Assembly: GCA_011374625.1 (NCBI GenBank)
Contig: DRPN01000006.1
Location: forward strand, 1-34,565
Direction of reading: 5' to 3'
DNA from: Bacteroidota bacterium
Lineage (GTDB): Bacteria > Bacteroidota > Bacteroidia > Bacteroidales > VadinHA17
DNA: 34,565 bases
Part shown: one piece after another, positions 13,092 to 34,565 of the stretch
Numbering within the stretch: position 1 is the stretch's first letter
How the letters are laid out: the number at the start of each line of letters is the position of its first letter
Position numbers and translations under genes: made by a program
Notes under the pieces: generated by a model
Databases searched by the model: none
What the model was told of the DNA's origin: nothing
What the model saw: only the letters and a program-made list of their open reading frames with translations

Positions 13092-13109
13092 ATAAAAAAA
13101 GGAGTAGGC
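13092..13109 (-). terminator. T-run at the 3' end of rnpB
   Basis: On the minus strand the P1 3' arm is followed directly by seven T residues (complement of the A-run at 13094-13100). P1 plus the T-run would act as an intrinsic terminator. It also lies just past the stop of the convergent hybrid kinase. Confidence 0.6.
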
Positions 13110-13472
13110 CTGTAAGCCGGATTCTGTTTCCCGGAAAGCTCTGCCAGAGATTTTTCCGGTATCCTGTCATTTATCTGGGGTATATGTCACCACATACCTC
13201 TATCGACCTACCCCCCGGCATCGGACGAGCAACCCTCAAATGCCGGTATACATGGTCTTTCAACCCGCAAGCCGGACGGCTGTCCGGGTCACCCCGGAGA
13301 CCGGTGGGCTCTTACCCCACCTTTTCACCCTTATCCGTCAACTGACGGACGGTTGTTTTCTGTTCCGGTACTATGCCCTTACAGACATCTTCCCGTTAGG
13401 AAGTGCGGTGCTCTGTGTTGTCCGGACTTTCCTCTGTCCGCCATAACGGACAGCGACAGGACAGCCTACTCC
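13101..13472 (-). ncRNA. rnpB: RNase P RNA (bacterial type A)
   Basis: Reading the minus strand, the 5' end GGAGTAGGC (13472-13464) pairs with the 3' end GCCTACTCC (13109-13101) as helix P1. The conserved GAGGAAAGTCCGGAC segment follows shortly after the 5' end, and the 3' side has the ACAGAATCCGGCTTACAGG signature. The length of about 372 nt suits a type A RNA. It is the catalytic RNA that trims tRNA 5' leaders. Reading frames crossing this interval are not genes. It lies on the strand opposite to the hybrid kinases and downstream of eda. Confidence 0.95.
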
Positions 13473-33834: not shown

Positions 33835-33907
33835 GCCTCCTTAGCTCAGTTGGTAGAGCGGCTCACTCGTAATGAGCAGGTCGTCGGTTCAAGTCCGATG
33901 GGAGGCT
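33835..33907 (+). tRNA. tRNA-Thr (CGT anticodon)
   Basis: A 73-nt cloverleaf with acceptor GCCTCCT/GGGAGGC, D-arm GCTC/GAGC and anticodon stem GCTCA/TGAGC. The loop CTCGTAA gives anticodon CGT (codon ACG), and the T-arm is GTCGG/CCGAT with a TTCAAGT loop. No CCA is encoded (CCG follows the discriminator T). Confidence 0.95.
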
Positions 33908-33986
33908 CCGGTGAGTTCGAAGGGTGGTTTTCTATACATGAAAGATAATAACTTTGAACTGATACCTTGAACGACGAACTGACTTT

Positions 33987-34058
33987 GCGGGAGTAGCTCA
34001 GTGGTAGAGCATCAGCTTCCCAAGCTGAGGGTCGCGGGTTCGATCCCCGTTTCCCGCT
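33987..34058 (+). tRNA. tRNA-Gly (CCC anticodon)
   Basis: A 72-nt cloverleaf with acceptor GCGGGAG/TTCCCGC, D-arm GCTC/GAGC, anticodon stem TCAGC/GCTGA, loop TTCCCAA (anticodon CCC, codon GGG) and T-arm GCGGG/CCCGT. CCA is not encoded. It is 79 bp after tRNA-Thr and likely cotranscribed. Its 3' half, from the anticodon loop onward, recurs downstream in two pieces (34361-34377 and 34445-34464), flanking a 67-bp insert. Confidence 0.95.
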
Positions 34059-34111
34059 CAATTATAACGGATCACAGAGCTTTTGTTGATCCTTTCTTTG
34101 ATTACACCAAG

Positions 34112-34384
34112 ATGTTTTCGGTATATATTTTGTGGTCAGAGAAGTTACAAATCTATTACATCGGGCAGACCTCTGATCTTGACAAGAGGCTGCAGCGTCA
34201 TAACCGGGGGTATGAGAAATTCACCAGAAAAGGTATTCCATGGATGTTGGTATGGTCGACAAAGAAAAGCAGCAGGCGGGAAGCAGTGCAATTGGAAAGA
34301 AAGCTGAAAAATTATTCTGTAAAAAGGCTTCGCATCTTTATGGACAAATACGATAAAGGACAAGCTGGGGTCGCGGGCCGCTGA
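34112..34384 (+). CDS. Small GIY-YIG nuclease-domain protein
   Basis: 90 residues, essentially a single GIY-YIG domain. VYILWSEKLQIYYIGQT supplies the two beta strands (YI and YIG), DKRLQRHNRG the Arg helix, and QLERKLKN the region of the catalytic Glu. ATG 34112 is chosen since the domain starts there; the upstream in-frame codons are the tRNA-Gly gene itself. Such small stand-alone proteins (UPF0213/YhbQ-like) are common in Bacteroidota. Its last codons (GQAGVAGR) are read through a copy of the tRNA 3' half, so the natural C-terminus may have been replaced. Placement 54 bp after a tRNA, within a tandem repeat, suggests a mobile or homing role, but this is inference. Confidence 0.8.
   Translation: MFSVYILWSEKLQIYYIGQTSDLDKRLQRHNRGYEKFTRKGIPWMLVWSTKKSSRREAVQLERKLKNYSVKRLRIFMDKYDKGQAGVAGR
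34361..34377 (+). repeat. Displaced tRNA-Gly fragment inside the GIY-YIG 3' end
   Basis: CAAGCTGGGGTCGCGGG matches the tRNA-Gly segment at 34021-34038 (anticodon loop to T-stem), except for one missing A. With the piece at 34445-34464 it would rebuild the tRNA 3' half if the 67-bp insert were removed. Confidence 0.75.
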
Positions 34385-34444
34385 CGATCCCTGACTGTAA
34401 ATGTCAGGGATGTCAGGGTGCCGACACCCATAGGGTCGTCGGCA
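34378..34444. repeat. 67-bp double-hairpin insert splitting the displaced tRNA half
   Basis: It contains ATCCCTGAC/GTCAGGGAT with a 7-nt loop and TGCCGACACCC/GGGT-C-GTCGGCA with an ATA loop. Its ends are imperfect inverted repeats (CCG-ct-GACGA against TCGTCGG). The compact, fully paired design looks like a small MITE-like or REP-like element inserted at the T-stem/T-loop junction. Confidence 0.6.
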
Positions 34445-34517
34445 TTCGATCCCCGTTTCCCGCTCAATTATAACGGATCACAGAGCTTTTGTTGATCCTT
34501 TCTTTGATTACACCAAG

Positions 34518-34565
34518 ATGTTTTCGGTATATATTTTGTGGTCAGAGAAGTTACAAATCTATTAC
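34518..34565 (+). CDS. Second GIY-YIG gene copy, truncated by the window end
   Basis: The first 16 codons from ATG 34518 are identical in nucleotide sequence to the start of the GIY-YIG gene at 34112 (MFSVYILWSEKLQIYY). The remainder lies outside the window. The 100% identity of the 121 visible bases implies a very recent duplication, or an assembly loop at a repeat. Confidence 0.7.
   Translation, partial: MFSVYILWSEKLQIYY

Follow-up and report, generated by a model that had tools for sequence, protein, structure and literature searches.

Endonuclease genes that bring with them a copy of part of their host gene have been described in mitochondria, where the mORFs of Glomus and Allomyces combine an endonuclease gene with a duplicate of the 3' end of the host gene (PMC3630166). 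On entry, the 5' part of the native gene becomes joined to the incoming copy and its own 3' end comes to lie downstream; one mORF (atp9) has a GIY-YIG enzyme (PMC3630166). SegB of T-even phages is a GIY-YIG homing endonuclease whose gene lies beside tRNA genes and which cuts inside them; its motif, RAWTSGAAC, occurs at 23 of 83 sites and, though not strictly required, increases cutting, and SegB is reported to promote tandem amplification of the tRNA-segB region (PMC13096335).

Here, we analyse a unit at the end of a 34,565-nt stretch of Bacteroidota DNA (the window, meaning that whole stretch), in which a GIY-YIG gene lies between two copies of a tRNA-Gly 3' end. As in the mORFs, a copy of the host 3' end lies upstream of the endonuclease gene and another downstream, so that the logic of a carried 3' end and a displaced native end is shared. 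The mORFs occupy mitochondrial protein genes, whereas the hosts here are bacterial tRNA genes, the nuclease is a bare domain and a conserved double hairpin marks the junction. The likeness to SegB lies in the neighbouring tRNA genes and in a target site overlapping the T-loop junction of our unit: in our own reading of the motif, its reverse complement, GTTCSAWTY, would span G53 to 61, that is the T-loop, and the window's T-loop GTTCGATCC differs from it at one position. SegB is, however, a phage gene, and the part of its description that we cite mentions neither a carried tRNA 3' end nor a double hairpin.

Two further groups of elements invite comparison. Integrase-borne elements such as prophages and ICEs also duplicate a tRNA 3' end and restore the gene on entry, but the present unit has no integrase, breaks the tRNA in the T-loop and belongs to a set of units of only ~100-600 nt. 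IS200/IS605 and REP/RAYT elements have palindromic ends, small units and non-autonomous copies; our unit differs in having no HUH transposase within it and in targeting a tRNA loop. Among the titles and abstract openings listed in our literature search, which excluded preprints and most subscription papers, we found no description of a tRNA-linked GIY-YIG unit. Compared with these systems, the unit may best be regarded as a variant of the endonuclease elements that replace the 3' end of their host gene.

Results

Organisation of the locus

The first-pass annotation described a complete tRNA-Gly, a 90-residue GIY-YIG gene, a split tRNA copy and the start of an identical second GIY-YIG gene, and this arrangement was borne out by ARAGORN and Rfam, by PF01541 and by a 121-nt repeat (Table 1). 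Within the 406-nt unit the order is tRNA T54 to end, terminator, GIY-YIG gene, short tRNA copy and a 67-nt double hairpin. The annotation also placed the start of the repeated tRNA 3' half in the anticodon loop. The CAAGCTG piece is indeed there, but the boundary of the repeat unit falls at G53|T54 (34039), and the anticodon/T-stem piece belongs to the right end. This partial copy reads CAAGCTG GGGTCGCGGG; it is 1 base shorter than the tRNA, with its last 10 nt exact to G53, and is separated from the displaced TTCGATCCCCGTTTCCCGCTC by the 67-nt insert (34378-34444). The final codons and the stop of the GIY-YIG frame fall in the tRNA copy and the beginning of hairpin 1. As judged by sequence comparison, the unit sits at G53|T54 of the T-loop, where tRNA 1-53 and the unit's T54-end form an intact tRNA, and a second tRNA 3' end follows downstream, behind the covarying double hairpin. 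Bases 1-53 would be the host's own and T54 to the end would have been brought by the unit.

Table 1. Features at the right-hand end of the window.
Feature	Position	Strand	Remark	Basis
tRNA-Thr(CGT)	33835..33909	+	upstream neighbour, outside the unit	ARAGORN, Rfam
tRNA-Gly(CCC), intact	33987..34059	+	putative target gene	ARAGORN, Rfam
Repeat unit	34039..34444	+	406 nt	direct repeat spacing 406
Terminator-like hairpin	34069..34099	+	GGATCA..TGATCC and T-run, between tRNA and GIY-YIG gene	read from sequence
GIY-YIG nuclease gene	34112..34384	+	90 aa from ATG	PF01541
Partial tRNA-Gly copy	34361..34377	+	3' side of anticodon loop to G53	sequence
Right-end hairpin 1	34378..34418	+		folding, covariation
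Right-end hairpin 2	34419..34444	+	abuts T54 of the displaced copy	folding, covariation
Displaced tRNA-Gly 3' end	34445..34465	+	T54 to end, 100% copy	direct repeat, split alignment
Second, identical GIY-YIG gene, start	34518..34565	+	16 codons	ended by contig end

The direct repeat (34039-34159 and 34445-34565; 121 nt, 100% identity, spacing 406) spans the tRNA 3' end, the terminator and the start of the second GIY-YIG gene, of which the first 48 nt are present before the contig (G000:C17, in a genome of 205 contigs) stops. From this terminal repeat a tandem array, a circle and a loop in the assembly graph are indistinguishable. The terminator-like hairpin can also be read after the displaced tRNA end and on a second contig of the genome, G000:C21, which carries tRNA-Gly from base 7 with the identical terminator, then a different sequence, and which overlaps the window by 109 nt, up to its own end. 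Because homologous stretches of the C21 gene and of an M48 peptidase gene flank the tRNA pair in a genome of the same genus (G004), one on each side, C21 is probably the right-hand flank of the window's site; and because an intact tRNA is joined there directly to this flank, the contig, as an assembly, appears to resemble an unoccupied allele.

Three frames of at least 60 aa are present in the 406-nt unit, namely that of the GIY gene and two overlapping frames, 74 and 72 aa long. Judged from these frames, the unit has no integrase gene, and within the same unit there is no HUH Y1 transposase and no room for one besides the GIY gene. A group I intron in the tRNA was considered and rejected, the tRNA being contiguous and the Rfam scan returning no intron family at gathering score. 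Elsewhere in the window, 13097-13472 on the minus strand encodes an ordinary bacterial class A RNase P RNA.

The GIY-YIG protein

The window protein matches PF01541 with an E value of 2e-15 (57.3 bits, cut-off 22.6), the Pfam domain lying at residues 2-68. Y5, Y16, R26, H30 and E62 are invariant in 55 aligned sequences (alignment A1), and we take them to be the catalytic Tyr, Tyr, Arg, His and Glu of GIY-YIG nucleases. From domain start to stop, 84 of 90 relatives' frames span 72-99 codons, and on the extent of the Pfam domain and these lengths there is no separate DNA-binding region beside the catalytic domain of the 90-aa protein; known homing GIY-YIG enzymes such as I-TevI do carry one. Of 63 pairs with 70-99% identity, many of them sharing a member, 46 gave a usable omega ratio, and in 45 of these 46 it was below 0.5 (median 0.12). 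By sequence comparison, the protein is seen to be under purifying selection with its catalytic residues kept. The closest solved structures are those of UPF0213 GIY-YIG proteins (1zg2, 7.3e-17; 1ywl, 4.1e-14), its best sequence relatives of solved structure, and of the structure-specific nuclease SLX1.

Phage or plasmid cargo was rejected: the window protein had one weak match in phage records (43% over 73%) and none in plasmid records, and a scan of viral contigs, for which the query was A3, a Lys-type alignment different from the window's own clade, gave one weak locus. A defence gene was likewise rejected, PADLOC, NCBIfam and PHROGs giving weak partial matches only for the four proteins tried. 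One relative (L313, G030:C23:14052-14279) has its GIY-YIG domain inside a far longer open frame, of 577 aa in the fetched part and 1063 in the genome search, with exact 20-nt matches to tRNA 1-20 on either side of the domain.

Association with tRNA genes

Relatives were sought by protein alone, and matches were found in 80 of 147 genomes, the window's own included. When named genomes were scanned with the window's clade, 80 loci emerged (76 Bacteroidota, 3 Chlorobiota, 1 without label), which span seven named orders; one Chlorobiota-labelled locus, L120, agrees in range with L038 (G010:C23) from the window's own family. The regions taken from the 147-genome search numbered 80 and 58, among the matches listed, and 161 fetched entries in the locus set reduced to 151 distinct loci. 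A same-strand tRNA gene lies within 350 nt at 117 of these 151 (101 upstream, 16 downstream only), tRNA counts including a few ARAGORN calls with undetermined anticodon. The remaining 34 comprise 4 with a tRNA at 352-428 nt, 21 truncated by a contig end and 9 without a complete tRNA, in 7 of which tRNA fragments are visible by eye. At the other two, the related GIY-YIG loci L102 and L114, there is no tRNA trace; in L114 an RT-7 RNA match scores 83.2 bits, short of the curated cut-off of 116.8.

In the fetched flanks, 147 of 149 same-strand ARAGORN tRNAs fall between 750 nt upstream and 500 nt downstream, and the control flanks (750-2500 nt upstream, 500-2750 nt downstream) hold none. Opposite-strand tRNAs total three, at 2.5-3 kb upstream, with none within 2.5 kb. 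Fifteen amino-acid types are represented (Gly, Met, Leu, Asp, Phe, Lys, Val, Pro, Ser, Ala, Arg, His, Asn, Thr and Glu). GIY-YIG genes beside duplicated tRNA parts thus recur in relatives, as the first-pass annotation had anticipated. Its concern that relatives might carry the gene at unrelated sites without tRNA duplication applies in part to more distant homologs: of 58 among the matches listed, 29 have a complete tRNA within 430 nt and 29 do not (11 of these near a contig end, 5 with clear tRNA fragments), and the tRNA link is therefore limited to part of the family.

Tandem full GIY-YIG domains occur at 14 of the 151 loci, all tRNA-linked, with a spacing of 294-623 nt. Four loci (L055, G089:C3; L058, G078:C33; L103, G138:C29; L056, G087:C1) have arrays of tRNA fragments or pseudo-tRNAs adjoining the tRNA, at a spacing of ~72-120 nt and with units mostly lacking a GIY-YIG gene.

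Breakpoints and the right-end double hairpin

We aligned the displaced copy to its own tRNA, with one insert allowed, at 96 loci. The score was at least 20 in 56, with the junction exactly at T54 in 25, from T54 to +7 in 43 and elsewhere in 13, so that the commonest break is exactly T54 of the T-loop; 30 of the 96 loci gave no split alignment, and with reversed tRNAs as a control 2 of the 96 scored above 0. Some Lys, Val, Met and Asn loci have an alternative layout, in which the anticodon arm of the displaced copy is swapped for a hairpin (e.g. TTCCGCTTTGCGGAA). At Pro and Ser loci the layout is mirrored, the tRNA 5' part (mostly 1 to ~20) being displaced upstream and interrupted mostly in the D-loop; this D-loop split is found in 8 of 13 loci with a downstream tRNA only, and not in 5.

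In the T54 class the insert consists of a double hairpin, approximately CCTGACG..GTCAGG TGCTGACC..GCGTCAGCA, abutting TTC. In the window, the DNA at 34363-34466 folds much better than its shuffles (z -5.5, 0 of 200). The right ends were compared in an alignment (A4) of 25 of 28, all picked from the T54 class, which leaves out L131 (irregular hairpin 2), L157 (one-base shift, like L135) and L176 (identical to L163), a choice that slightly raises the paired percentage. Scored against a structure drawn by hand from these same sequences, 96.3% of cells pair, compared with 78.9% in shuffles; double changes are seen at 17 of 23 pairs, covariation is 0.492 against 0.155 shuffled, and none of five measures was reached by any of 500 shuffles. 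The outermost pair of hairpin 1 fails in 10 of 25. Given this covariation, we rejected the idea that the insert arose by simple decay of the displaced half. Hairpins 1 and 2 contain 69 cells with changes on both sides and 3 with a one-sided change; because G-U steps are thus rare, there is a hint that the pairing occurs at the DNA level.

A covariance model of the right end (R1), trained on the T54 class only and run with stricter filters, and so giving a low estimate for all classes, found 23 matches in 12 of 60 genomes. Four have a GIY gene nearby, seven stand solo beside tRNAs (L242-L244, L246, L248-L250) with no GIY within ~1.5 kb, two have neither neighbour and ten lie in a repeat away from tRNAs. 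In this last repeat (L247, L251-L259, in G019, G027 and G028; some copies near contig ends) a similar double hairpin, CCCTGACGTTTTAGTCAGGG TGTGACCAAAGCGTCATCACATTCGA, lies between TTATTTAA-type flanks, and it is possibly an insertion sequence end or a REP-like repeat.

Flanks and phylogeny

In the 48 loci kept for flank comparison, each with a usable downstream end, the tRNA ends, restored and displaced, are nearly identical. The flanks following them are less than 80% identical in 29 loci, 14 of which, at 60-77%, fall short of clearly unrelated, and in the other 19, the window among them, the duplication reaches into the post-tRNA flank. Unlike flanks fit a foreign donor, and alike flanks fit local copying or homogenisation. 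Because the window's duplication includes ~42 nt of terminator, its copy was probably made or homogenised locally.

A tree was built from 139 domains, each at least 180 nt long, over 69 columns; 111 of the domains carried a label, and 14 of the 136 inner branches were starred. On this tree, tRNA isotype required 43 changes compared with 80.4 after label shuffling (0 of 200 as low) and order 19 compared with 28.1, where the shuffles treat near-copies as independent. The isotype count suggests that lineages keep to one tRNA yet switch, e.g. from Leu to Asp (L146/L155), and isotype clustering together with the count for order makes both inheritance and transfer likely.

Alleles within the window's genus

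Compared across members of one genus, the locus is empty, mini-filled, ruined or full. The empty tRNA-Gly site that the first-pass annotation had suggested looking for is present in close relatives: three genomes (G001, G004 and G006) have no element at the same tRNA-Thr/tRNA-Gly pair, and G005:C188, which begins inside the tRNA, is also an empty form. In G004 (L232, G004:C13) the pair is inverted relative to the neighbouring genes when compared with the window. The G002 site is ruined, with no remaining GIY match; by eye, only the first GIY-YIG codons are left, with a changed start codon and unrelated sequence after them. That following sequence (L229, G002:C6) resembles, by eye, a transposase-type helix-turn-helix frame. 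G005:C211 carries a GIY-less mini-unit composed of T54-end, 12-nt spacer, tRNA copy to G53, double hairpin and displaced end, the last itself split by another hairpin. By eye, a further hairpin-like insert before TTTCCCGCTC or TTCCCGCTC re-splits the displaced end at L230 (G005:C211) and at L246 (G009:C1). Over aligned bases, the empty forms G001 and G005:C188 are 92.7% and 94.5% identical to G005:C211. Occupied and empty alleles of one site are thus present in close relatives, the filled partner with near-identical flanks (G005:C211) being GIY-less.

Discussion

We consider that the unit is most probably, at roughly two chances in three, a minimal, integrase-free, homing-like element that is aimed at tRNA-gene loops and carries a replacement tRNA end. 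The first-pass proposal that a module entered the tRNA gene, restored it and displaced the original half gains support here from the recurrence of the layout in relatives and from the empty sites. We infer further that the nuclease drives insertion. In the mechanism we propose, the GIY-YIG nuclease would cut the T-loop of unoccupied tRNA genes, and the break would be repaired by copying in a donor's unit, with tRNA 1-53 and the T54-end serving as homology arms, as in homing, giving the product G53|T54..hairpin|T54. Such insertions would be tolerated and survive because the incoming T54-end keeps the tRNA whole. The double hairpin would interrupt the displaced copy, and may be either a recognised end or a block to re-cutting. 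Tandem arrays could arise from repeated entry or from recombination between direct repeats, and GIY-less mini-units could be moved in trans.

Parts of this picture sit awkwardly with what is known of homing. It is the displaced copy that is interrupted, while the restored tRNA keeps T54 and its flank, that is the supposed target, and neither a bare domain nor a restored, still cuttable tRNA fits classical homing. With UPF0213 and the structure-specific SLX1 as the closest proteins of solved structure, recognition of DNA structure by the nuclease is a serious alternative. Taken furthest, and as a tentative proposal that we think may well be wrong, this would make the units a new class of Bacteroidota mobile element, in which a bare structure-specific GIY-YIG nuclease recognises extruded cloverleaf or hairpin DNA of tRNA genes, entry occurs at D-, anticodon- or T-loops, the carried half restores the tRNA, a perfect DNA double hairpin forms the end and GIY-less miniatures move in trans.

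The rival explanation that survives best, although we judge it unlikely, is structure-driven transposition. The double hairpin would be the genuine end of the element and, as with IS200/IS605 or REP elements, would be recognised in its single-stranded or cruciform form; the GIY-YIG nuclease would cut before TTC at both junctions, and the unit or a circle would re-enter G53|T54 without homology-directed repair. The rarity of one-sided changes in the hairpins, the kinship with UPF0213 and SLX1, and the model matches that stand solo beside tRNAs (7 of 23 in 60 genomes) or in a repeat away from them (10) are what might be expected from such a process. Hairpin|T54 and G53|T54 also have an identical right side, so two like cuts would free the unit. 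However, the 406-nt unit has no room for a HUH transposase or an integrase besides the GIY gene, the tRNA copy preceding the hairpin would be needless, and no circles were seen, though the contig-end loop would fit one.

Much less probable is a local tandem duplication of the tRNA 3' region in which a long-resident GIY-YIG gene is a passenger that does not move between sites. The post-tRNA flank common to both ends in 19 of 48 loci and the tandem domains at 14 of 151 could both arise in this way, but the T54 breakpoint and the covarying double hairpin would be left without explanation, and the spread over 15 tRNA types, between which labels switch on the tree, presence and absence within one genus and the unlike flanks in 29 of 48 loci all count against it.

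A role at the RNA level seems to us slightly more improbable again. Here a tRNA-linked nuclease would be encoded by an mRNA ending in a tRNA-like structure, serving for example in processing, tRNA cleavage or a toxin-antidote pair. Displaced copies do retain the T-stem or a hairpin-swapped anticodon arm, and every tRNA close to the gene is on the gene's strand. Against this, hairpins 1 and 2 have almost no G-U pairs, some units lack the GIY gene, some sites are empty, and the named relatives of the protein are DNA nucleases. Finally, an assembly artefact at a contig end of a fragmented genome, which the exactly 121-nt second copy ending the contig and the 109-nt overlap of G000:C21 to its own end might suggest, both being of the kind expected from graph overlaps, is scarcely credible for the layout, being contradicted by the same layout inside long contigs, by its occurrence once on the complete chromosome of Draconibacterium orientale (L149), and by tandem copies internal to contigs at L117, L176 and L191; it concerns only the copy number in the window.

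The mechanism that we favour, that of a homing-like element carrying a replacement tRNA end, can be tested directly, given the precise junctions and the empty sites in close relatives. If it is correct, then these units would represent a one-gene, integrase-free route into tRNA genes, by which a nuclease without an obvious DNA-binding region finds one loop in many different tRNA genes. This would account for the tRNA fragments and repeat arrays at such loci, and would provide a bacterial counterpart of the mitochondrial elements that replace gene ends.
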